Of a DNA stretch of 40,185 nucleotides, positions 12,073 through 23,822 are shown in pieces (positions within the stretch are counted from its first letter, which is position 1; each line of letters opens with the position of its first letter). The stretch is from Bacteroidota bacterium (GTDB taxonomy: Bacteria > Bacteroidota > JABWAT01). A model generated the notes under the pieces. The model did no database searches. It was not told the origin of the DNA and saw only the letters and a program-made list of their open reading frames with translations. The stretch lies in contig JAFLBE010000041.1 of NCBI GenBank assembly GCA_017303995.1, positions 1-40,185 on the forward strand. The letters are read 5' to 3'. The position numbers were made by a program, and so were the translations under genes.

Positions 12073-12744
12073 TTATTTTTCGATGGTAAGGAATCTGTCT
12101 TTTTTTTGACCAAATTCTCTGATCCCGGCACAATTTGTAAACTGTAAAGGAAATGAGCCATTCCATTCATTTATCCAGGAATAGGTGTCGTTCACTGATT
12201 TTTCTGAATCGACCCAAATTTTCAATTCTTCAAAGGATGATACTCCATCTGGTGGGAGGGTTTCGTCGAGATAAAAAGCAGAAGCGCCTTCCAATTCTAG
12301 CTTTTCAACGAGGCATACCGGGCTTATTATTCGGGCACTTCCATCCAAATCAGCAGTTGCCAGCAAGACCAGGTTTGAAATTTCACCTGACAATGAATTT
12401 AATGTTTGGCTATTTACAGCGATTGTGCCGTTTCTCAAAGAAACAATTTTTCGCTGATGGCCTGAAAATGAAATCGCAGGTGCCATGCCTTCCGCAAGGA
12501 AGTTGACCATTGGTTTTAAAATTGAACTGGTGAGAGTCGAAATTAATTTCTGACTGATGGGTTCAGGCAGATCAGGAGCCGGTTGAAATAAGAGTGCAGA
12601 ATTGATCTCCATTTGTAGGGCAGCAAATCTTCTTCCGTCAGGAATGAGAATAAAAACCTCTCCGGATGCTTTTATGCACCTTCCTAAATTTTCAAGAAGG
12701 CGTGTATCTGAGAGGTAAAAATCACTAAGGTAAAGTACGTTCAA
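12073..12744 (-). CDS. Protein of unknown function, faint amino-acid-kinase resemblance
   Basis: The 223 residues have no family I recognise with confidence. The segment APAISFSGHQRKIVS (about 97-111) resembles the AISLTGWQAGI region of aspartokinases, and the preceding helix and N-terminal VFILIPDGRRFAALQ could fit that fold, but the ATP-binding glycines and catalytic Lys are not visible, so any kinase activity is doubtful. There is no signal peptide. It starts with TTG at 12744, overlapping the TGA of the upstream gene (TTGA), so it is translated by coupling with the secreted beta-rich protein at 12741-13502. Confidence 0.55.
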   Translation of the reverse strand: MNVLYLSDFYLSDTRLLENLGRCIKASGEVFILIPDGRRFAALQMEINSALLFQPAPDLPEPISQKLISTLTSSILKPMVNFLAEGMAPAISFSGHQRKIVSLRNGTIAVNSQTLNSLSGEISNLVLLATADLDGSARIISPVCLVEKLELEGASAFYLDETLPPDGVSSFEELKIWVDSEKSVNDTYSWINEWNGSFPLQFTNCAGIREFGQKKDRFLTIEK

Positions 12745-13502
12745 TTTGCTCTCTTTCTAATTTCAAAATCAGGCACGAAAAACCCAAGCATTACACCAAG
12801 ACTCCCGGATGTCACTTTTTCAGCAGTTCTGATCTGTCGAAAAACAAAACTACAATTCACATAATTCCCCAGGTAAATGCTGTAACCGGCAGTTCCTTCT
12901 AGAAAAAGCTGTTTTTTTGAGGTCATTGCACCAACTTCCAGGAAAAAACTGCTCAAATAAGAGGTTCGTGGGTAGGTTCTGAAATAAAAATCGAGTCCGG
13001 TGGCAAGATTTCCTGAAAAGGTGACGTTTTGATTTCCCGTAATAATCCCCCCATTCAACCTGCTTCCATAAAAAGAGCGCCCTGAAGGACTTCTTAAATG
13101 ATAACCAAACCCAAGCGATAACAAAGTGATTTTGGAAAGCGATTTATTTTCGCTGTCAAGGCTATATTCATCAAAAAGAAACCTTGCAGAGGCCGTTGAA
13201 TCAGACTGTTCAAGTTCAAACCTTTTTCCGATGATCTGCGAGGGTTGGTTACTGAAAAAAGATTGACCCACTCTGACTCCACCGGTAAAAGAAAGGAATC
13301 CTTTCAGGGTGATTTCAGATTGGATGTCACGTTTTTCAAATTCCTGTTTTGCCAATGCACTATCAAGATAATCGGGCGGAAGTTCAATCAGGAACCGGGT
13401 TTTGGTTGATTTGACTTCCTGGGCAAAGGAGACAGATATGCTCACAAAACCAAATTGACTTAGAAAAAGTATAAATAAAAAAGTTAAATTGCTGATTTTC
13501 AT
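12741..13502 (-). CDS. Exported beta-barrel-like protein, function unknown
   Basis: 253 residues with a clear signal peptide (hydrophobic core LTFLFILFLSQFGFVSISV, cleavage likely after SFA near residue 27). The mature part is rich in alternating aromatic and small residues (FLSFTGGVRVGQSFF, LLSLGFGYHLRS, GNLATGLDFYFRTYP, LFLEGTAGYSIYLGNY, SGSLGVMLGFFVPDF), the pattern of outer-membrane beta strands. It may be a small porin-like or OmpA-type barrel in the outer membrane. The final strand is not followed by a terminal Phe as in classic porins. Its stop overlaps the TTG start of the gene at 12073-12744, so the two are one unit. Confidence 0.65.
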   Translation of the reverse strand: MKISNLTFLFILFLSQFGFVSISVSFAQEVKSTKTRFLIELPPDYLDSALAKQEFEKRDIQSEITLKGFLSFTGGVRVGQSFFSNQPSQIIGKRFELEQSDSTASARFLFDEYSLDSENKSLSKITLLSLGFGYHLRSPSGRSFYGSRLNGGIITGNQNVTFSGNLATGLDFYFRTYPRTSYLSSFFLEVGAMTSKKQLFLEGTAGYSIYLGNYVNCSFVFRQIRTAEKVTSGSLGVMLGFFVPDFEIRKRAN

Positions 13503-13612
13503 AGCCGTTAAAGTACATTTTTTTTTAGAATGATGCGAAATCCGTGATTTTTAAATGTTACACAATCTTGAAAGTTGGAAACAAATGGCAATAAAAATGA
13601 CAAAAAAATGAC

Positions 13613-13650
13613 TTGGCTTTGGTAAAAAATAAAAATAAACTTTATCTTTA
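13613..13650 (+). promoter_or_regulatory. Possible promoter of the first T9SS gene
   Basis: Two overlapping readings are possible: TTGGCT (13613)-N17-TAAACT, or TTTG (13618)-N21-TATCTTTA (13643-13650). Either would give a leader of about 75-90 bases before the ATG at 13732. The region 13503-13731 otherwise holds only the divergent upstream regions of the two flanking genes. Confidence 0.35.
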
Positions 13651-13731
13651 ATTGACTCTTTTTCTTAACCATTCAATTTGGCAAGACCAAAACAAAAGAG
13701 TTTTCATTTAAATAATTTAAGGAAAAAACGA

Positions 13732-15012
13732 ATGAAAAAAATGATAATACTGTTTTTTTTGTCACTGGTGCCTGTTCTTGGGTTTTCACAGGCGGTTTAT
13801 CCCGGAAATGGAAATTCTGGTTTTGGGGGAGTGCTTGGAACCGGGAATTTTTCAATTAATGACAACGGGACAACCGTAACGATTACCTTTACAAAGGGAA
13901 GTGGCGGGTTTAATGATGCAATTGTTGTTTACATTGATAGCGATGGGTCAAGAAACTTTCCATTTACTGTTACCTTTACTGATGAAGGGGATAATCTGAG
14001 AAAAGCTATTTCAGGAAGAAGTTCCGGTAGCAATACCGTATTGTTATTCCCAGGTAGTTTTGAAGCAGATTATGCGCTTGCTTTTGCACCCGCAGAGTCT
14101 TTTGGTGGTTTATGGCAACTTGAAACTGGAAGTCACACCTTTATTTCCAGTGCTAACTTATCATCATTCTCCACAACCGATCCTGTATATACGGTCTCTT
14201 TTACCTGGGCAAGCATCGGGTTAACAGGGGGTCCTGGTGATAATTTTGATTTTCTGGTCACCTATCTCTCCACAACTGCGTTCCGTGCGAATGAAACTAT
14301 TGGTGAAGGTCTTGAGGGGGGTAACCCAGGCTTTGGAGCCGCTGCATTTACCGGGTTCCGCTCTTATTATCAGGGTGGATATGACACACCCCTCCCAGTT
14401 GAATTACTTTCCTGGTCAGCAACGCCAGCTGATAATAAAGTCATTTTGAACTGGGAAACGGCTTCAGAGTTGAATCATGCCGGATTTGAAATCCTTCGTT
14501 CAACAACAAAAGACGGAAAATTTCAGTCAATATTGAACTATAAAGACAATGATGCCTATGGCTATAAAGGTCAGCAAGGCGGTAAATATTCGTTTGTTGA
14601 TGACCGCAAAGTATACAACGGACTTACCTATTTTTATAAATTGGTTGATATAGCTGTTGATGGCAAACGCACCGAGCATACCACCATTTCTGCAATTCCA
14701 ACAGATGGCAAGCCTGTTCAGCCTGGTTTTGAATCTCCGGCTGAGTTTGCAATCAAGGGTTTATATCCGAATCCATTCAATCCGAGTGGAAACCTGGAAT
14801 TTTCGCTTCCTAAAAAAGGATTTGTATCAGTTGAACTCTATAATGTGATTGGTCAAAAAGTGGCAATTGCATTTCAGGGAACTCTGGAAGGTGGAAAAAA
14901 CCATACGAACCGGATCGAAATTTCGGGAAATGGTCTTCCTTCTGGTGTTTATCTGGCTGTTGTCAATTACTCAGGTCAGCGCCTGACCAGTAAGTTTACT
15001 CTTCTGAAATAA
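13732..15012 (+). CDS. Secreted protein with T9SS C-terminal sorting module (twin 1)
   Basis: Starts at MKKMIILFFLSLVPVLGFSQ, a clear signal peptide, preceded by AAGGAA; an in-frame TTG at 13678 would add 18 unlikely residues. The 426 residues contain an N-terminal beta-rich domain (about 21-210: YPGNGNSGFGG, NGTTVTITFTKGSGGFNDAI, YIDSDG) resembling carbohydrate- or DOMON-type modules, a fibronectin-III-like linker (LPVELLSWSATPADNKVILN, WETASELNHAGFEILRS) and a C-terminal sorting domain with LYPNPFNPSGNLEFSLPKKG and LPSGVYLAVVNYSGQ, ending KFTLLK. Proteins with this tail cross the outer membrane by type IX secretion and are usually attached to the surface. Its last 216 residues are identical to those of the next gene. 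Confidence 0.88.
   Translation: MKKMIILFFLSLVPVLGFSQAVYPGNGNSGFGGVLGTGNFSINDNGTTVTITFTKGSGGFNDAIVVYIDSDGSRNFPFTVTFTDEGDNLRKAISGRSSGSNTVLLFPGSFEADYALAFAPAESFGGLWQLETGSHTFISSANLSSFSTTDPVYTVSFTWASIGLTGGPGDNFDFLVTYLSTTAFRANETIGEGLEGGNPGFGAAAFTGFRSYYQGGYDTPLPVELLSWSATPADNKVILNWETASELNHAGFEILRSTTKDGKFQSILNYKDNDAYGYKGQQGGKYSFVDDRKVYNGLTYFYKLVDIAVDGKRTEHTTISAIPTDGKPVQPGFESPAEFAIKGLYPNPFNPSGNLEFSLPKKGFVSVELYNVIGQKVAIAFQGTLEGGKNHTNRIEISGNGLPSGVYLAVVNYSGQRLTSKFTLLK
14362..15012 (+). repeat. Shared 3' module, copy 1 (651 bp)
   Basis: Aligns without gaps to 15988-16638. I count seven substitutions in 651 bp, all at third codon positions and all synonymous. Similarity stops at the stop codon and drops sharply upstream of RSYYQGG. 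Confidence 0.95.
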
Positions 15013-15033
15013 TCATTAACTCAGTTTACTTTT

Positions 15034-15073
15034 AAATCCGTTTTGCAATCTTGCAAAGCGGATTTTTTGTTTT
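15034..15073 (+). terminator. Terminator of T9SS twin 1
   Basis: Stem AAATCCGTTTTGCAA / TTGCAAAGCGGATTT (15 bp with one G-T pair and a minimal loop) followed by TTTGTTTTT on the plus strand, 21 bases after the stop. The rest of the 15013-15339 gap holds the next promoter; nothing else is seen. Confidence 0.88.
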
Positions 15074-15219
15074 TACCTGCCTTCAACCCGCATAACTCTC
15101 CAGAAACAGAAATTCCCTAAGTCTATTATTTATCAAGCCAGTTCGATTGTTTATCTTAATATAAGTAATAAAAATTGTTAATTATGCTAAGTTTTCTTCC
15201 AAATAATCAGGTAGCAAAA

Positions 15220-15250
15220 TTGGAATTGGTTACGACGCGAATTATTTTAG
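15220..15250 (+). promoter_or_regulatory. Probable promoter of T9SS twin 2
   Basis: TTG (15220-15222), 20 bases, then TATTTTAG (15243-15250). This keeps the spacing of the tRNA promoters and matches six of eight positions of TAnnTTTG. Predicted leader of about 80 bases. Confidence 0.45.
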
Positions 15251-15339
15251 AATCGATCCAGTCTCTTTATAAGGGATATAAGAATTCTGGTGTTTTTTAG
15301 TTTTTTACTAAACAAATCACAACGTAAGGAATTCTATCC

Positions 15340-16638
15340 ATGATTAAAATGATATTCGCACTATTTCTACTCAGCCTTCCTTTTACAGGAATGTCGCAGG
15401 CAATTTATAACGGGAACGGGAATACTGGCGCTGGTGGCGGGGGTACACTTGGAACCGGAAGTCTTTCCATCGCTGACGATGGAACCACGGTTACTATATC
15501 ATTTACCCGGGGTCCTGTTGCCTTTTATGATGCAGTTGTTATTTACATTGATAGTGACAACAGCGGAGATTTTGCAAACACAAGTTCTTTTACTGATGAA
15601 ACCAGCGGCGTGCGACGGGCTGCTTCAGGGTTATTAACCCCAAATCAAGCCCTGGTTAATTTTTCGCCCGGCTTTCTTGCAGACTATGCTGTTTCCTTTT
15701 CTGCAGTTGAAGGTTTAGGTCAGGTTTACCAGTTAATAGCAGGACCCTCAAGTCACGTTCTTGCGGTTGGTGCCAACCTTTCAACGACTGATCCTTTTGA
15801 ACCAGTCTTTACCGTTTATTTTCCATGGACTGCAATTGGTCTCACCGGAGCAGAAGGTGAAAACTTCAGATTTGTTGTTACCTTAATTGACCCGCTTACA
15901 GGCTATCGCTATGACGAAGCAATTGGTGATGGAATAAGCAGTGGAAATCCCGAGATCCCTTCAAGCGTTACTTATACCGGTGGTCGTTCTTATTATCAGG
16001 GTGGATATGACACACCCCTCCCAGTTGAATTACTTTCCTGGTCAGCAACGCCAGCTGATAACAAAGTTATTTTGAACTGGGAAACGGCTTCAGAGTTGAA
16101 TCATGCCGGATTTGAAATCCTTCGTTCAACAACAAAAGACGGAAAATTTCAGTCAATATTGAACTATAAAGACAATGATGCCTATGGCTATAAAGGTCAG
16201 CAAGGCGGTAAATATTCGTTTGTTGATGACCGCAAAGTATACAACGGACTTACCTATTTTTATAAATTGGTTGATATAGCTGTTGATGGCAAACGCACCG
16301 AGCATACCACCATTTCTGCTATTCCTACAGATGGCAAGCCTGTTCAGCCTGGTTTTGAATCTCCGGCTGAGTTTGCAATCAAGGGTTTATATCCGAATCC
16401 ATTCAATCCGAGTGGAAACCTGGAATTTTCGCTTCCGAAAAAAGGATTTGTATCAGTTGAACTCTATAATGTGATTGGTCAAAAAGTGGCAATTGCATTT
16501 CAGGGAACTCTGGAAGGTGGAAAAAACCATACGAACCGGATCGAAATTTCAGGAAATGGTCTTCCTTCTGGTGTTTATCTGGCTGTTGTCAATTACTCAG
16601 GTCAGCGCCTGACCAGTAAGTTTACCCTTCTGAAATAA
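15340..16638 (+). CDS. Secreted protein with T9SS C-terminal sorting module (twin 2)
   Basis: 432 residues starting MIKMIFALFLLSLPFTGMSQ, a signal peptide of the same length and style as twin 1; TAAGGAA stands before the ATG. The N-terminal domain (about 21-215: YNGNGNTGAGG, DGTTVTISFTRG, VVIYIDSDNSG) is clearly homologous to that of twin 1 but only roughly half identical. From RSYYQGGYDTPLPVELLSW to the end the protein is identical to twin 1, including the FN3-like linker and the YPNPFNPS sorting domain. The pair is likely exposed on the cell surface or released. The binding target of the variable domain is unknown. Confidence 0.88.
   Translation: MIKMIFALFLLSLPFTGMSQAIYNGNGNTGAGGGGTLGTGSLSIADDGTTVTISFTRGPVAFYDAVVIYIDSDNSGDFANTSSFTDETSGVRRAASGLLTPNQALVNFSPGFLADYAVSFSAVEGLGQVYQLIAGPSSHVLAVGANLSTTDPFEPVFTVYFPWTAIGLTGAEGENFRFVVTLIDPLTGYRYDEAIGDGISSGNPEIPSSVTYTGGRSYYQGGYDTPLPVELLSWSATPADNKVILNWETASELNHAGFEILRSTTKDGKFQSILNYKDNDAYGYKGQQGGKYSFVDDRKVYNGLTYFYKLVDIAVDGKRTEHTTISAIPTDGKPVQPGFESPAEFAIKGLYPNPFNPSGNLEFSLPKKGFVSVELYNVIGQKVAIAFQGTLEGGKNHTNRIEISGNGLPSGVYLAVVNYSGQRLTSKFTLLK
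15988..16638 (+). repeat. Shared 3' module, copy 2 (651 bp)
   Basis: Second copy of the 651-bp block at 14362-15012, in direct orientation at a fixed offset of 1626 bp. Seven silent differences, no insertions or deletions. Confidence 0.95.
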
Positions 16639-16661
16639 ACTGAATAAACCCGCATTTTTTT

Positions 16662-16691
16662 CAGTCGCAGGGGAGTGTTCTTCTGCGACTG
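16662..16691 (+). repeat. Inverted repeat after T9SS twin 2
   Basis: CAGTCGCAG / CTGCGACTG, a perfect 9-bp stem with a 12-nt loop, 23 bases after the stop. The T-run lies before the stem, not after it, so it is not a classic intrinsic terminator, though it may protect or end the mRNA. Confidence 0.6.
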
Positions 16692-16842
16692 ATGAATTAA
16701 ACCTGCCAACCCCTGAATCTCTTAAATTTATTAAGTCTAAATGAATCAAAACTTTAGAAAAATAAAATAAAAGTTGTGACCTGTGGCAACATTTCCAAGT
16801 CTTATTGGCTGTAAATTTGTATCACTTTTAACGGCAGCCCTT

Positions 16843-16986
16843 ATGATAAAAAAACTTATTTCTCCGACCTTTATTTCTATCCTTCTGGTAATTGGAATTC
16901 TTTTGATTGCCTTACTCATCAGTTCATATAATAATGAACAACTTCCCTCCAAACGAAGCACAGTAAACATTTCTGCATCCTTCTGA
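16843..16986 (+). CDS. Possible small single-pass membrane protein
   Basis: An ATG-initiated frame of 47 residues (MIKKLISPTFISILLVIGIL then LIALLISSYNNEQ) with one strong hydrophobic helix after a basic start and a polar tail. A longer GTG-started version from 16783 is possible. There is no good Shine-Dalgarno and no recognised family, and an AT-rich region can give hydrophobic frames by chance. It is the only candidate gene in the gap 16639-17092. Confidence 0.25.
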   Translation: MIKKLISPTFISILLVIGILLIALLISSYNNEQLPSKRSTVNISASF

Positions 16987-17092
16987 GCCTTCTTTCGTTT
17001 CTAACCCGATTATAATTTATTTAAGATAAAAATATCTGTTTCTTTGTACTGTATTCTCTTTGCGTTTTGAAAATTAACCCACAGGGTGAAAA

Positions 17093-18817
17093 ATGGAAAT
17101 CCGGGGAAAGCGCGCCATTGTTTTAGGTGGGGCAGGCCTTGTTGGCCGGGCCGTTTGCAGGCTAATGATTGAGGAAGGTGTTCAGGCACTCATGGTTACC
17201 TCCCTTCTTGATTCGGAGGCTGAAGAGTTTATTAGTCAACTTAAAATTGAATATCCTGATGTACCGGTCAACTATTCACTGTTCGGTGGTAATTTATTTG
17301 TCCGGTCAGAGTTAAAATATTATTCCCGCTCTGAAATATTTGGGAACGAACAAAATCGCCGGCAGTTTATCAGTGACATTCTCGAACCACTATCCACTGA
17401 CATCCTGAATCAATCTGCACTCTATCAGCTCATCACTTCTTTTCAGCCACATGTTCTGGTTGATTGCATCAACACCGCAACGGCTGTGGCCTATCAGGAT
17501 ATTTTCTCTGTCGCTTCTGATGTGTTTTTAACTGTAAAATCTGACCATCCAGAAACAACGCAATTGAAATCGGAAATCGAATTGCTTCTCGGTTCACTGT
17601 ATGTTCCGCAACTGATCAGACATGTACAGATTATGCAGCAATCAATGAAACTGGCTGGCTGTGAAATGTATCTGAAAGTAGGGACTTCTGGTACAGGCGG
17701 AATGGGGCTGAACATTCCCTATACCCATTCAGAAGACAAACCTTCAAGAATGTTGCTTGCAAAGGCAGCTATGGCCGGGGCCCACTCGTTACTGTTATTT
17801 CTCATGGCACGAACGCCAGATTCCCCAATTATAAAAGAAGTAAAACCCACCGCTGCAATTGCCTGGAAAAAAATTGGATTTGGGCCTATAAAAGTAAGAG
17901 GCCGGCAATTGATAATGGAAGACTGTTTGCCCGGGAATGCTTTTTCTTTATCGGGGAAACTTGAATCAAATCTGAACCCAGATGAAAAAATCATTCATTT
18001 AAAGTCTGAAGGAAAACCTCGTCTTCTCGAAGCCCCATTTATTGATACGGGTGAAAACGGAATGTTCTCGTTGGGTGAATTTGAGGCGTTGACTGATGAT
18101 GGACAAATGGAATTTATAACTCCTGAAGAAATAGCACAAACCATCTTGTGGGAAATTAAAGGCAGAAATACAGGAAGTGACATAGTAAATGCACTTGATA
18201 ATGCGACCATGGGGCCAACTTACCGGGCTGGTTATCTGAGAAAACGGGCACTTGATACTTTGCGAAAACTTGAAAAGCAGCACGGTGTTGATTCTGTTGC
18301 CTTTGAAATTCTGGGTCCTCCCAAATTATCGAAATTGCTTTATGAGATTTATTTGCTGAAGGAAATTTTTAAAAGTTTTGAAGCAATTTCAGCTGAAACA
18401 CCAGAAAAATTATCATCTGCGATGATGGATTTGATTTCTTCACGTCAGGAAGTACGATCCAGAATATTATCAATTGGAATTCCCATTCTTTTACCCGATG
18501 GCAAACAATTATTGAGGGGAAGCGTAATTAAAATTCCGGGCGGAAATCACACTTTTGAGGTTACCCCTGAAGCTGTTGATTTATGGGCGCAGGATGGTTG
18601 GGTTGATCTCAGAATTGAAAACATGTTGAAATGGAAAAACCGGACAACCCACATTCTTGGTGAAATTGCATCGTTGCCTTCAAAGGATACAAGTTCCCGG
18701 ATTACCCGTAACCGGGATTACTGGTATCACGATAAAGAAGAGAAAGACATTCATCTTGGCAAGGTTGCAGCCTGGATTTTTATTCATGAAGAAAAGGGGC
18801 AACGAATGAAAGCATGA
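17093..18817 (+). CDS. Large NAD(P)-binding Rossmann-fold protein, SDR-like
   Basis: 574 residues beginning MEIRGKRAIVLGGAGLVGRA, with the dinucleotide-binding GxxGxxG at Gly12, Gly15, Gly18. A VLVDCINTATAVAYQD stretch near 124-139 fits the end of the Rossmann domain. Further on are KVGTSGTGGMGLNIPYTHSE (about 197-216) and a long C-terminal region (about 330-574) that I cannot assign. It is twice the size of a classic short-chain dehydrogenase, so it is an extended or atypical oxidoreductase of unknown substrate. No Tyr-x-x-x-Lys pair can be named with confidence. It stands alone, with 275 bases before and 247 bases after it. Confidence 0.7.
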   Translation: MEIRGKRAIVLGGAGLVGRAVCRLMIEEGVQALMVTSLLDSEAEEFISQLKIEYPDVPVNYSLFGGNLFVRSELKYYSRSEIFGNEQNRRQFISDILEPLSTDILNQSALYQLITSFQPHVLVDCINTATAVAYQDIFSVASDVFLTVKSDHPETTQLKSEIELLLGSLYVPQLIRHVQIMQQSMKLAGCEMYLKVGTSGTGGMGLNIPYTHSEDKPSRMLLAKAAMAGAHSLLLFLMARTPDSPIIKEVKPTAAIAWKKIGFGPIKVRGRQLIMEDCLPGNAFSLSGKLESNLNPDEKIIHLKSEGKPRLLEAPFIDTGENGMFSLGEFEALTDDGQMEFITPEEIAQTILWEIKGRNTGSDIVNALDNATMGPTYRAGYLRKRALDTLRKLEKQHGVDSVAFEILGPPKLSKLLYEIYLLKEIFKSFEAISAETPEKLSSAMMDLISSRQEVRSRILSIGIPILLPDGKQLLRGSVIKIPGGNHTFEVTPEAVDLWAQDGWVDLRIENMLKWKNRTTHILGEIASLPSKDTSSRITRNRDYWYHDKEEKDIHLGKVAAWIFIHEEKGQRMKA

Positions 18818-19064
18818 ATTTATTGTAGTGAAATGCAATAAAATCAGTGTTTTAAAACAAATAATGCTTGCTTACAAATAAAAATCTGATTAAGTTTATA
18901 ACAATGATGAAAAGTTGAGTGATTTTGTTAAAATTTTAACTTTTTATCCGCAATCAAAACAAATTTGTGATTCAATTAACACAAATACAGGTAATTATAT
19001 AGTATCTTACATAAATACTTATTTACCAACAACCTGAACAGGCAACAGGCTAAGGGAAGCAGCA

Positions 19065-20444
19065 GTGGAAGTTATTGATTCATTCAAGAAAATGGCCGAA
19101 GGCGTTTACTCAACCGGAAATGGTGTTCACCGTATCGGTGATGAGAACGGACTTTTGTCTGCCTATCTGATTGAAACCTCAATTGGCCTTGTTCAAATAA
19201 ATACAGTTCCAGAACTGTTTAAAACCTATTTTCCAGTTTTTAAAAAATTACCTGTCGCTATATTTGCAGGTGGTCCTAAGACTAACGAATTGGGTGATTC
19301 TTATACTGGATTTGAATTTGAACTCTGGATTTCACGGTTCATGGATTTTATGAATCCGAACCGCATTAAATTTATCAGCAGTGAAGAAAACCTGAAGCGC
19401 ATTTATGGCCGTCTCGAAATACCGATGAACGGGAATTTTGTAAATGATGAATTGGGAACCGAACGAGCCCGTTTTGTAGGCAAAAGATGGATTGATGATG
19501 TGTTTGAATGGTGTCCGATTCAGGATGAAATGACAGTTGGTACAGTTAAATTTCAGTACATCAGTGATAATCATCTGGTTGTTTATGATCGTAAGAAGCT
19601 GGTGTTTGACTCAGAATTATTTCCAAATATCGTTTTAAACGGAAGAGCCACTTCCTTTGTTGAAGAAAGATTAAAATCAGCCAGACCATTTTCGCCCAAG
19701 CAGGAAGAGCTTGAATTGATTGTTGCCGGTGCAAGTATTGGTACCCGGCCGGGTGTAACTTCAAACTTTATCTTAAGCTGGAATAACCGGCTTGCCTGGA
19801 TTGATCCGCCGGCAAAAGCATTTGAAAAAGGTGTTCAGCTTGGTGTAAATATTGATCAGGTTCAGGATTTTATCATTTCACACGTCCATGAAGATCATAT
19901 TGAAGGTTTTAGCAGCATTCTCGCCCGTAAAATCAATCAGAAGAAAAAACTGAGTTTGATTTCAGTTCCCGAAATATACGATCAGGTGAAAACTATTTTT
20001 TCTCCGAATTTCGGCGATATTGCCCAGCATATTGATTTTCAAAATATAAATGACCCGCTTTTTGGCAATTACCATGGTGCCAGTTTTGAAACCAGAATAA
20101 ATTACCATCCGGTTCATACACTGGGCTTTAAAGTTGGATTTAATGGCAAAAAAGTGGGTATCAGCGGTGATATTCTTTATAAGAAAACCATTCTTGATTC
20201 CCGTCTTAAAACCGGTGATGTCTCAAAGCAAGACTTTGAAAAATTGATCCCAACCTGGTTTTCAGATTGCAATGTTCTGCTCCATGACACAACCGTCAGC
20301 GGGGATCCTGTTCACACTGCTCTAGCTGATGTTGAAGAACTTGCTTCACAACTACCTTCATCTGTTAAAGTTTTCGGTTACCATGCCGGAGCGGCAATTG
20401 AGTCTGCGACTGTTCAGCAGGCAAAATTTGGCGAACACCTGTAA
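19065..20444 (+). CDS. Metallo-beta-lactamase-fold hydrolase with degenerate N-terminal half
   Basis: 459 residues; starts at GTG with AGGGAAG about 7 bases upstream. The C-terminal half (about 225-459) is a metallo-beta-lactamase domain: SNFILSWNNRLAWIDPPAKA, the metal motif HVHEDHIEG (His272, His274, Asp276, His277), YHPVHTLGF with a further His, VGISGDILYKK with the bridging Asp, and a late VFGYHAG. The N-terminal half looks like the same fold without metal ligands (SAYLIETSIGLVQINTVPEL, then FAGGPKTNELGD where HxHxDH would be). The substrate is unknown. The gene lies just upstream of tRNA-Pro and is probably a separate transcript. Confidence 0.78.
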   Translation: MEVIDSFKKMAEGVYSTGNGVHRIGDENGLLSAYLIETSIGLVQINTVPELFKTYFPVFKKLPVAIFAGGPKTNELGDSYTGFEFELWISRFMDFMNPNRIKFISSEENLKRIYGRLEIPMNGNFVNDELGTERARFVGKRWIDDVFEWCPIQDEMTVGTVKFQYISDNHLVVYDRKKLVFDSELFPNIVLNGRATSFVEERLKSARPFSPKQEELELIVAGASIGTRPGVTSNFILSWNNRLAWIDPPAKAFEKGVQLGVNIDQVQDFIISHVHEDHIEGFSSILARKINQKKKLSLISVPEIYDQVKTIFSPNFGDIAQHIDFQNINDPLFGNYHGASFETRINYHPVHTLGFKVGFNGKKVGISGDILYKKTILDSRLKTGDVSKQDFEKLIPTWFSDCNVLLHDTTVSGDPVHTALADVEELASQLPSSVKVFGYHAGAAIESATVQQAKFGEHL

Positions 20445-20451
20445 AACACGC

Positions 20452-20482
20452 TTGATTCAGCTTTCGGTTTTAATTACCTTTG
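20452..20482 (+). promoter_or_regulatory. Promoter of tRNA-Pro (TTG-N20-TACCTTTG)
   Basis: TTG (20452-20454), exactly 20 bases, then TACCTTTG (20475-20482), a perfect TAnnTTTG, 14 bases before the tRNA 5' end. It starts right after the stop of the preceding gene. Confidence 0.75.
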
Positions 20483-20496
20483 CATCTCCAAAAGTT

Positions 20497-20570
20497 CGGG
20501 GCGTAGCGCAGCCTGGTAGCGCGTACCCTTGGGGTGGGTGAGGTCGCAAGTTCAAATCTTGTCGCCCCGA
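20497..20570 (+). tRNA. trnP: tRNA-Pro (anticodon GGG)
   Basis: Cloverleaf: acceptor CGGGGCG / CGCCCCG with discriminator A, D-arm GCGC-AGCCTGGTA-GCGC, anticodon arm TACCC-TTGGGGT-GGGTG with anticodon GGG (top pair T-G), T-arm GCAAG-TTCAAAT-CTTGT. CCA is not encoded. A T6 run follows immediately. The 3' end overlaps, on the opposite strand, the last codons of comEC. Confidence 0.95.
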
Positions 20571-22963
20571 CTTTTTTGGTTTTTCCCACTCGCTTTTTTT
20601 GTTTCAACCGTAATGGTTTCCCCATCAGTTAAAAAGCGGATTTCACCGCTTTTTTGCGTTTGGAGCAGTTCACTTCCATCAAAAACCCATTTTTCTTCAA
20701 TTTCTGCAACCGGTAGCCGGTATCGGTTATTCAATCCAGCAGAAATAACTGCATATTTCGCCTGCGCAACACCCATCCAGTCATCTGACGAAGATGTTTT
20801 ACTTCCATGATGTGAAACTTTGATTACTGTTGTGTTAAACCATTCGGGGGTTACCTGGCTGACCAGTAACTTTTCAATTGGCTTTTCAAGGTCACCGGCT
20901 GAAAGTAATGAAAAATTCCGGTATTGATACCTGATGAGAAAGCTTTTGTCGTTCATATTCCGGGTCAGATTCTGAGGATCAAATAGGTATAGTTTTTCTT
21001 CAAGGCCCAGTTTTATCACTTTTTTTTCTCCTGTCAGTTGAATTGAAGTTCCCCTTTGCCGGAAATTTGCAATCGTTTTTTGGAAAAGGGGAGAAGCACC
21101 ACATGTATCGCCAAGAATAATTGTTTTTATCGGGATGACAGAAGACACAGCAATCAACCCGCCATAATGATCAAGGTGCGGATGGGTAATAATAACCAAA
21201 TCAATGTTTGACTTTCCCCAGTACTTTAACCGGTTGGTAATTAACTCAGAAACCTGTCTGCCATCTTTCTTTACAGGACCGGCATCGATCAGGGTTAAAT
21301 GCCCGTCCGGTGATAAAATCCACATGAGATCGCCCTGTCCACAAGACATGAAGGATATTTCTGTCTGCTTTTCTTTACCTGTTTGAATCGCCAGAATAAA
21401 ACCAATGACAATAATTCCTGAGAATAAAACCACTTTTCTGAGTGTAATTCCGTATAGGACAAGGGTTGTTACAATTCCAAAAATCAGAATAAAAACTTCT
21501 TGTGTTTCAAATGAAACTGTCATTCCACTTAACGGAAGCCTGGAAAACCAGGTGGTTATTTCCTGCATGAGGTAAACAATAAAAGAGGCAGCTGTACCAA
21601 AAACCGAAGCCAAATACACGGAAATAGATGAAATTATTACTGAAAGAAAGCCAGTCATCATAACCAACGAAGTGGCCGGAATAACTATTAGGTTTGCCAA
21701 TGCACCTGTTACCGGAAGATTTTGAAAAAACAGGACAGTTACCGGTGATGTTGCGATAATTGCAAAAAGGGTAAGTTTTAATGGTGACAGCAACTTTTGG
21801 CCTAGTGCCTTTGTAGATTTTCGGGGTAAGATCCGATCTGCAAATAAAAGTCCGGCAACGGCACCAAACGAAAGCAGAAAACCGGGTTGGGTTGCCTGAA
21901 TCGGGTCATAGGCAATCATGAGAATAAAAGCAAAAAACAAGGAGGACCAACCAGTTGATTTCCCCTGTTTCAAAATACTGAGCAAAACGATAGAAGACAT
22001 GACCACAGCTCTTACCATGCTGGCCGACCAACCCGTCAGCCATCCATAAATAAAAAGACCGGAAATCGTAAAAATGACCCGGAAGGTTTCACCATGGAAC
22101 GGAAACCAATATCTGACCCGAACCCAGGGGGAAAACAACAGCAGGGTTACAAAACCAACATGAAGCCCACTTACACTTAAAATATGCAGTGTTCCTGTCA
22201 CAGAATATGCCTGTACCGACTCTGGTGGCATCCAGGAACGGTAACCGAGCAACAATCCACGTACGAATCCCTGTCCGTCACGGGTGGGTATGTGGTTACT
22301 GATTTGGGTTTCTATCCAAAACCGCACTTCACCCAACAATTGGCCAGAAATTGAACCTGATTCTGCATTTGCTTTCAGCCAGCTTATATTCTCTGGGAGA
22401 ATGAGGCCTAAAATGTGATTACTTTCGAGATAGTCACGGTAATTAAATTCACCAAAATTATCAGGTTCAGCCGGTGACGTTACCTGGGCTTCAACTTCAA
22501 AACCAATACCTTCCCTTATTATTGGCGTCAGCATTGAATCCGTATAAAAAAGGACTTTGAAATTACCTTCCAACCATTGGTGACTGACTTTTAGACTGTC
22601 AACAAAGAATTCAGCAGAACCCCTTAACCCGGGCTTTCGATCAATTGTTGTAAAATGTCCTTTAAGTTGAATCTGTTGTGACGGGAAATGAAGGGAAGTC
22701 AGGTTGGTCTGACTTTTTGAGTAAAAGGCCGTGAGAAAAGTAAACGAAGCCAATAAAGTCAAATTCCGAAATAAAACCAGAATTGCATGTGGATTTTTTC
22801 GTGTAAACCAAAAAAGACTGCTGCTAACAAAAAATAGAATAGATGAAGTGAAAAACAGAATCTGAAGGGTAAATGAAATATAAAAACCAGCTAAAAGCCC
22901 TAAAATACAGGCTAATGCAAGCCAGAAAACCGGTTGGTTAAACGGATTGAATGGTTCTTTCAT
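20552..22963 (-). CDS. comEC: ComEC/Rec2-type DNA uptake channel
   Basis: Polytopic inner-membrane protein that imports single-stranded DNA in natural transformation. At 803 residues it has the full three-part layout: N-terminal membrane helices and an OB-type periplasmic domain (about 1-230), the Competence domain with SVTGTLHILSVSGLHVGFVT and further helices (about 235-520), and a C-terminal metallo-beta-lactamase domain (FMSCGQGDLMWILSPDGH, LTLIDAGP, IITHPHLDHYGGL near 585-597, KVSHHGSKTSSSDDW). The MBL domain keeps its metal ligands. It overlaps the upstream gene by 26 bases. Its final codons (SRGDKI) lie inside the antisense of tRNA-Pro. Other competence genes are not in the window. Confidence 0.93.
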   Translation of the reverse strand: MKEPFNPFNQPVFWLALACILGLLAGFYISFTLQILFFTSSILFFVSSSLFWFTRKNPHAILVLFRNLTLLASFTFLTAFYSKSQTNLTSLHFPSQQIQLKGHFTTIDRKPGLRGSAEFFVDSLKVSHQWLEGNFKVLFYTDSMLTPIIREGIGFEVEAQVTSPAEPDNFGEFNYRDYLESNHILGLILPENISWLKANAESGSISGQLLGEVRFWIETQISNHIPTRDGQGFVRGLLLGYRSWMPPESVQAYSVTGTLHILSVSGLHVGFVTLLLFSPWVRVRYWFPFHGETFRVIFTISGLFIYGWLTGWSASMVRAVVMSSIVLLSILKQGKSTGWSSLFFAFILMIAYDPIQATQPGFLLSFGAVAGLLFADRILPRKSTKALGQKLLSPLKLTLFAIIATSPVTVLFFQNLPVTGALANLIVIPATSLVMMTGFLSVIISSISVYLASVFGTAASFIVYLMQEITTWFSRLPLSGMTVSFETQEVFILIFGIVTTLVLYGITLRKVVLFSGIIVIGFILAIQTGKEKQTEISFMSCGQGDLMWILSPDGHLTLIDAGPVKKDGRQVSELITNRLKYWGKSNIDLVIITHPHLDHYGGLIAVSSVIPIKTIILGDTCGASPLFQKTIANFRQRGTSIQLTGEKKVIKLGLEEKLYLFDPQNLTRNMNDKSFLIRYQYRNFSLLSAGDLEKPIEKLLVSQVTPEWFNTTVIKVSHHGSKTSSSDDWMGVAQAKYAVISAGLNNRYRLPVAEIEEKWVFDGSELLQTQKSGEIRFLTDGETITVETKKASGKNQKSRGDKI

Positions 22964-23822
22964 TTCTTCCGGAAAGAGATAAGTTTATGAGTACTCTGAG
23001 ATCAAGTATACTTGAAGGTACAAAACTTGCCGGAAAATTGAAAATAAGCGGGACGGGATTAAAGGTGTGTGATGACGTTGAATTGTCTTCTGCATTTCCG
23101 TGATCGCTGCAAATAATAACGTTTATTGGGTTGCCGCAAACGTCAATATGTTCTAAGAATGCAGAAATTGTTAGTATTTCATTTACGGAAGCTTCACTAT
23201 TTTGATCGTGACCCAAATGATCAAGAAAAAAGTAGTCGGTCATTCCAAAATCAATGGTATTGAACTGTTTTAAAAGATGTTTAAACGCACCTTCAGGAAA
23301 ACCGGGGTCATCAAGGTCAGTAAATCGTTTTAAATGACCAAAATTAAGAGAAGGCGGGAAACCAATACCCTGATGGAGATCGTCAATTGAATGCAAAGGT
23401 TTACCGTTGAGGGTTTGCAGGAACCCAAATGTGTTCATCCGCATCTTTCGTGACTCAATCGCCTGAAAATACCGGTCGGGATAAACGTTTAACATATCCC
23501 ATGAAAATCCCTTTTCTTCACAATCCTGAATAACAGAATCTGATGCAAGCCATGGGCGGTGACTGGTGTGCGGATAGGGTCCGTGATGTTTGCCGAGGTC
23601 AAGTGCAGCATTCCGGCCCGTCAGAAGGGCAATCTGACCCGTTCCAGACTGAGGTAAGCCATCAACGGCAAGGCAGGCATCAACAGGATGGCAGGTCCAC
23701 CCTGGAATTATGTCATAGATCAGTTTATAAAGGAAACTATCGGGACATTTGGAAAAGGGGTTGGATTGAGAATCAGCGGGTGCGATCCCCAATCCATCTA
23801 TAAAAAGGAACCAGGTTTTCAC
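22938..23822 (-). CDS. Alkaline-phosphatase-superfamily metalloenzyme (phosphomutase-like)
   Basis: 294 residues starting with GTG at 23822 in a GTGA overlap with the DoxX stop. Metal-ligand motifs of the alkaline phosphatase/phosphoglyceromutase superfamily are in order: FLFIDGLGIAP with Asp9, LPQSGTGQIALLTGRN with the likely nucleophile Thr61 (or Ser59), DYFFLDHLGHDQNSE, and NVIICSDHGNAEDNSTSSHT. This is shorter than iPGM or DeoB and resembles the small 'metalloenzyme domain' proteins found in several phyla. A phosphatase or phosphomutase activity is likely, the substrate is unknown. It sits between DoxX and comEC in a chain of overlapping genes. Confidence 0.8.
   Translation of the reverse strand: MKTWFLFIDGLGIAPADSQSNPFSKCPDSFLYKLIYDIIPGWTCHPVDACLAVDGLPQSGTGQIALLTGRNAALDLGKHHGPYPHTSHRPWLASDSVIQDCEEKGFSWDMLNVYPDRYFQAIESRKMRMNTFGFLQTLNGKPLHSIDDLHQGIGFPPSLNFGHLKRFTDLDDPGFPEGAFKHLLKQFNTIDFGMTDYFFLDHLGHDQNSEASVNEILTISAFLEHIDVCGNPINVIICSDHGNAEDNSTSSHTFNPVPLIFNFPASFVPSSILDLRVLINLSLSGRNERTIQSV

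Follow-up and report, generated by a model that had tools for sequence, protein, structure and literature searches.

Two neighbouring genes in the window (the whole stretch of 40,185 nucleotides that we analysed), here called A and B, end in almost the same DNA. This is very probably the result of recurrent, homology-driven gene conversion (concerted evolution) in a tandem pair that is older than the split between the source genome (G000) and a sister genome (G002). Recurrent gene conversion had been proposed in the preliminary description of this DNA, and the sister genome strongly supports it. The features that matter here are listed below. (The gene starts, ATG 13732 for A and ATG 15340 for B, correct the listed frames.)

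13732-15012, + strand: gene A, predicted T9SS cargo of 426 aa, with a signal peptide, a front beta-sandwich, an FnIII-like domain, and a type-A sorting domain
15340-16638, + strand: gene B, predicted T9SS cargo of 432 aa, with the same architecture as gene A
13789-14360, + strand: front domain of A, with 48% protein identity to the front domain of B and an orthologue history
15397-15986, + strand: front domain of B, with a weak resemblance to CBM9/DOMON-like folds and no named sequence family
14362-15012, + strand: probable converted module of A (FnIII-like plus sorting domain)
15988-16638, + strand: probable converted module of B, with 7 silent differences from A
14752-15012, + strand: T9SS type-A sorting domain of A (TIGR04183/PF18962), about residues 362-440 of the listed reading frame
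16387-16638, + strand: T9SS type-A sorting domain of B (TIGR04183/PF18962), about residues 350-428
15034-15065, + strand: terminator-like hairpin 3' of A

We compared the two modules base by base. They align without gaps and differ at 7 of 651 positions (14436, 14442, 14694, 14700, 14811, 14925, and 15000 in the window). All seven differences are synonymous, and 216 residues and the stop codon are identical. (An eighth silent difference, at 14361, lies in the Arg codon just 5' of the module.) If substitutions were indifferent to coding, the probability that seven of seven would be silent by chance is about 4e-5 to 2e-4. Upstream of the module, the front (N-terminal) parts of A and B have 48% identity in protein and 55% in DNA, and downstream the identity ends at the TAA stop codon. 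The seven silent differences and 216 shared residues that had been counted by eye are exact, and the upstream parts described as roughly half identical, like the end of similarity at the stop codon, hold up on measurement. A search of the genome for further copies of the module with other N-terminal domains had also been suggested. In the 4.31 Mb genome the module is found at more than 70% DNA identity at only these two places. The next-best relatives are two places on contig C46, with 67-68% DNA identity. (The A/B protein matches 146 places in G000, nearly all via its C-terminal half.)

Several lines of evidence support the prediction that A and B are type-A T9SS cargo, as had been proposed from the sequence. 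Both N-termini are signal-peptide-like, and both sorting domains score above the curated cut-offs (36-38 bits against 23 for TIGR04183, and 35 against 27 for PF18962). G000 also encodes T9SS machinery, including SprA (PF14349, E = 5e-74) and a T9SS sortase (NF033707, 792 bits). The FnIII-like domain was assigned by fold. The front beta-sandwich, of about 190 residues, belongs to no named family in Pfam or NCBIfam, and a sequence search of the PDB with the full-length alignment found no match. A fold search with the whole protein returned only generic FnIII/Ig matches. For a structure model of the front domain alone (pLDDT 75, pTM 0.80), the best matches were CBM9 (1i82) and the gamma subunit of ethylbenzene dehydrogenase (2ivf), with E of about 2e-3 and TM of 0.4-0.47. 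This weakly suggests a resemblance to CBM9 or DOMON-like ligand-binding folds. In a sample of 394 genomes from the phylum, 6 (G000 included) encode the front domain or a relative, in some cases inside larger proteins.

The sister genome G002 holds both A and B in the same gene order. (The contig with the pair matches the public record JAIUNL010000022.1, from a Bacteroidetes MAG.) In G002, the edge of similarity between the twins is again sharp, and it lies at the same codon as in G000. We aligned the codons of all four genes (A0 and B0 from G000, A2 and B2 from G002), split the alignment at the edge, and asked whether each informative site groups the orthologues or the paralogues. On the 5' side of the edge, 122 sites are orthologue-type, 9 are paralogue-type, and 8 are crossed; within the module, the counts are 1, 103, and 0 (Fisher p = 1e-54 for the flip). 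Likelihoods under GTR+G switch in the same way. The front part favours (A0,A2),(B0,B2) with a deltaL of 133, and the module favours (A0,B0),(A2,B2) with a deltaL of 135 for the FnIII part and 22 for the sorting domain. Because the site patterns flip and the topologies reverse, A and B are older than the species split, with the modules homogenised afterwards in each lineage. The alignment in a related genome and the test for conversion tracts that had been suggested for this pair have thus both come out in favour of conversion.

The extent of divergence tells us more about these events. DNA identity over the module is 98.8% within G000, 88.5% within G002, and 75-78% between the genomes. In G000, dS between A and B is 0.055 over the module and 2.8 in the front part. 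The corresponding values in G002 are 0.23 for the FnIII part and 1.3 for the sorting domain, so the homogenisation events of the two lineages were separate. (Between the species, module dS is 1.1-1.6.) The comparison shows that the modules were homogenised after the split in both lineages, to different extents, and with the same upstream edge. Independent evolution of the modules in related genomes, which had been raised as an objection, was not found, except that in G002 the sorting domains have diverged from each other since they were last converted. The picture of variable surface domains on a constant export module finds no support in that form: between species, protein identity is 80-83% for the module, 76% for the front domain of A, and 85% for that of B. 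It is only within a genome that the modules resemble each other, as a result of conversion. We also looked for a donor, but the ratios (30:18 and 9:3) are not significant; transfer was perhaps from A to B. Finally, the terminator-like hairpins that follow A0, A2, and B2 are similar, and no similar one follows B0. One conversion tract in G002 may have extended beyond the stop codon. A caveat is that such hairpins can resemble one another by chance.

The twins sit within a block that is more diverged between the two species. In genes to the left of about 12 kb, dS to the sister genome is 0.06-0.6, and from 12.7 to 23 kb it is 1.3-2.3. The between-species dS of the twins, about 1.0-1.6, is in keeping with the surrounding block, and a dS that is high across the block leaves the argument for conversion within each genome untouched. 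When window positions 12100-23200 are compared with the G002 stretch (L056), there is a jump in divergence, and patches of 96-100% identity lie at about 5.4-7.1 and 9.1-10.4 kb. The jump and the patches suggest recombination or replacement between species.

We then surveyed other sorting-domain genes, using about 40 stretches rich in such genes from four related genomes (G000-G003) together with the window, for a total of 113 genes; each of these genomes has about 95-150 sorting-domain genes. Identity was computed from the DNA of the final 85 codons, and neighbours were defined as genes on the same strand within 8 kb. Identity was at least 70% in 53 of 109 neighbour pairs versus 2 of 2,095 other pairs from the same genome; these fractions are not genome-wide rates, because we chose stretches that contain clusters. 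The distant pairs listed with 76% or more belong to the same clusters and lie slightly beyond the 8-kb limit. Across the sampled clusters, the sorting-domain DNA of many neighbours is 80-99% identical, versus about 48% for non-neighbours in the same genome. Many pairs show an abrupt drop in identity, with 80-98% on one side and about 50% on the other. The drop falls at the edge of the sorting domain, about 80 codons before the end, or at the edge of the FnIII domain, about 200 codons before it. Among the 50 measurable pairs whose sorting domains have an identity of at least 0.75, the preceding DNA falls below 0.60 in 22. Post-split, paralogue-type tracts are found in the C85/C20 clusters as well. 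Sorting domains are also of a type peculiar to their cluster: in another cluster (C54) and its G002 counterpart (C11), mean identity is 0.86-0.88 both within and between the two, and against other clusters it is about 0.48-0.52. Recent tandem duplication accounts in part for some of the homogenised pairs, and the fact that other clusters are partly recent tandem duplicates counts against the generality of conversion. Also, G029, a single-contig genome with 83 sorting domains, has no homogenised neighbours (the maximum identity is 0.64 in 17 pairs). Homogenisation thus depends on the lineage and is not phylum-wide.

Conversion is not aimed at the export module as a rule: two neighbour pairs are near-identical upstream of the sorting domain instead. 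One is a pair of T9SS genes at about 176.2-179.8 kb of G000:C1 (L067 4220-5695 and 6323-7798), whose 1476-bp 5' parts are 99.66% identical and whose 3' ends are not shared, the reverse of the twins. The other is in G001:C21 (L132 3711-4883 and 7612-8784), where 1173 bp upstream of the sorting domain is 96% identical and the sorting domains are only 65% identical.

Three other loci were noted. In another species of the genus (G001:C11; L085 5784-6401 and 10452-11069), there is a second near-twin 3' end, of 618 bp with 92.9% identity; its sorting domains are 98% identical, and the two proteins are 741 and 1455 aa long. G003, unlike G000 and G002, has a second tandem pair, X/Y, in homogenised form. 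Between G000 and G002, the 3' cassettes of X/Y (L058 9990-10700 and 12339-13050, compared with L057) have 97-100% identity and the parts immediately upstream only 50-80%, which points to exchange between species rather than conversion between neighbours. Lastly, a single-contig genome of another family contains a mosaic trio (G007:C1:2360653-2377598; L116), in which the sorting domain of a 307-aa frame is 95% identical to that of one neighbour, and the FnIII part of this frame is 95-100% identical to that of another.

Could the twins have arisen in some other way? First, a duplicated module might have been newly fused to two front domains, or replaced from another locus or species. Such shuffling onto a cassette had been offered as an alternative to conversion, it would fit the sharp upstream edge, and elsewhere in the genome neighbours with unrelated front parts do have sorting domains in common. 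But it is not needed for the twins, whose front domains are homologous paralogues with same-order orthologues in both species. G000 contains no other donor copy, and two independent fusions at the same codon would be required in the two species, so we consider shuffling highly improbable here. Second, the 651-bp repeat might have been collapsed or mis-joined by the assembler. G000 is in 127 contigs, and the phase of the seven differences between the copies depends on the assembly alone. Nevertheless, there are two copies with distinct flanks as well as those differences. The separately assembled G002 has the same edge, and its modules, at 88.5% identity, would not confuse an assembler. Similar sharing of 3' ends occurs at many loci, including in the single-contig G007. 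We therefore give an artefact very little credence. Third, the strong protein-level constraint that had been proposed is real in part, as the silence of all seven changes and a between-species dN/dS of about 0.1 for the module indicate purifying selection, but constraint without recombination has practically no chance of being the sole cause and was ruled out, because the silent sites are near-identical too and because the module differs by 17-20% in protein between the sister species.

Recurrent gene conversion would work as follows. A and B are T9SS cargo genes that arose by an ancient tandem duplication, which predates the split from G002. Non-reciprocal homologous recombination between the direct repeats, which are about 1.6 kb apart, would be resolved as conversion, so that the FnIII and sorting-domain end of one gene is repeatedly overwritten by that of the other. 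Upstream, tracts would end once divergence between the front domains prevents pairing; downstream, they would end where homology is lost near the stop codon. Together, these losses of homology would produce the sharp edges. Purifying selection, acting on the module after each event, would leave mainly silent differences. From what is generally known of gene conversion in bacteria, we infer that the process is presumably RecA-dependent, and that the edges are probably set by loss of homology and not by selection for distinct front domains. Recombination between direct repeats explains the same gene order, the sharp edges, and the separate events. Recurrence for the twins rests on two lineages, since only two genomes hold the pair. 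Such local conversion probably acts on many other neighbouring T9SS cargo genes in these genomes.

The usual view of T9SS sorting domains is that they are a shared tag that evolves slowly. Given how much more alike neighbours are than non-neighbours, trees of sorting domains in these genomes report position and conversion, not the history of the cargo. Relying on the C-terminal half of T9SS cargo to assign orthology or family will mislead. Conversion also provides a natural way of joining new front domains to an export tag that already works. A broader proposal, which we think rather unlikely, is that in this Bacteroidota lineage sorting domains form locus-specific types, with each cluster keeping a sequence of its own that conversion spreads among otherwise unrelated neighbours, possibly because these neighbours use a common export or anchoring route; the tag would then evolve by neighbourhood and not by cargo.

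Recombination among T9SS cargo genes is already known in Porphyromonas gingivalis. In open-licence papers that treat type IX secretion together with domain shuffling, gene conversion, or concerted evolution, we found no report of neighbourhood-wide homogenisation of sorting domains. In Helicobacter pylori, the bab and hom outer-membrane paralogues undergo concerted evolution. These are also surface-protein genes that are partly kept alike by intragenomic gene conversion; they differ in using another export route, in lacking a separable secretion tag, and in not being homogenised neighbourhood-wide over many cargo genes. Lasting concerted evolution has been described as very rare in prokaryotes (Wang and Chen 2018, PMC6053082). 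Those cases are similar in that paralogues are closer within a species than to their orthologues, which was ascribed to recurrent conversion, but they involve whole genes, mostly for members of stable complexes (PMC6053082), while the homogenisation here is limited to domains and is frequent among cargo genes. In Neisseria meningitidis, the 3' end of the secreted-protein genes tpsA/tpsC also recombines with nearby homologous cassettes. There, the 3' end affects a growth-inhibition function (PMC3848433), whereas the twins share an export part and have no silent cassettes. A close T9SS example is rgpA/kgp/hagA of P. gingivalis, whose domain rearrangement and allelic exchange have been discussed in terms of gene conversion (Dashper et al. 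2017, PMC5266723). As with the twins, these are T9SS cargo genes with near-identical downstream domains that recombine within one genome. But P. gingivalis exchanges adhesin domains, which leads to diversity between strains (PMC5266723), while in the twins the sorting-domain end is homogenised and the front domains stay apart.
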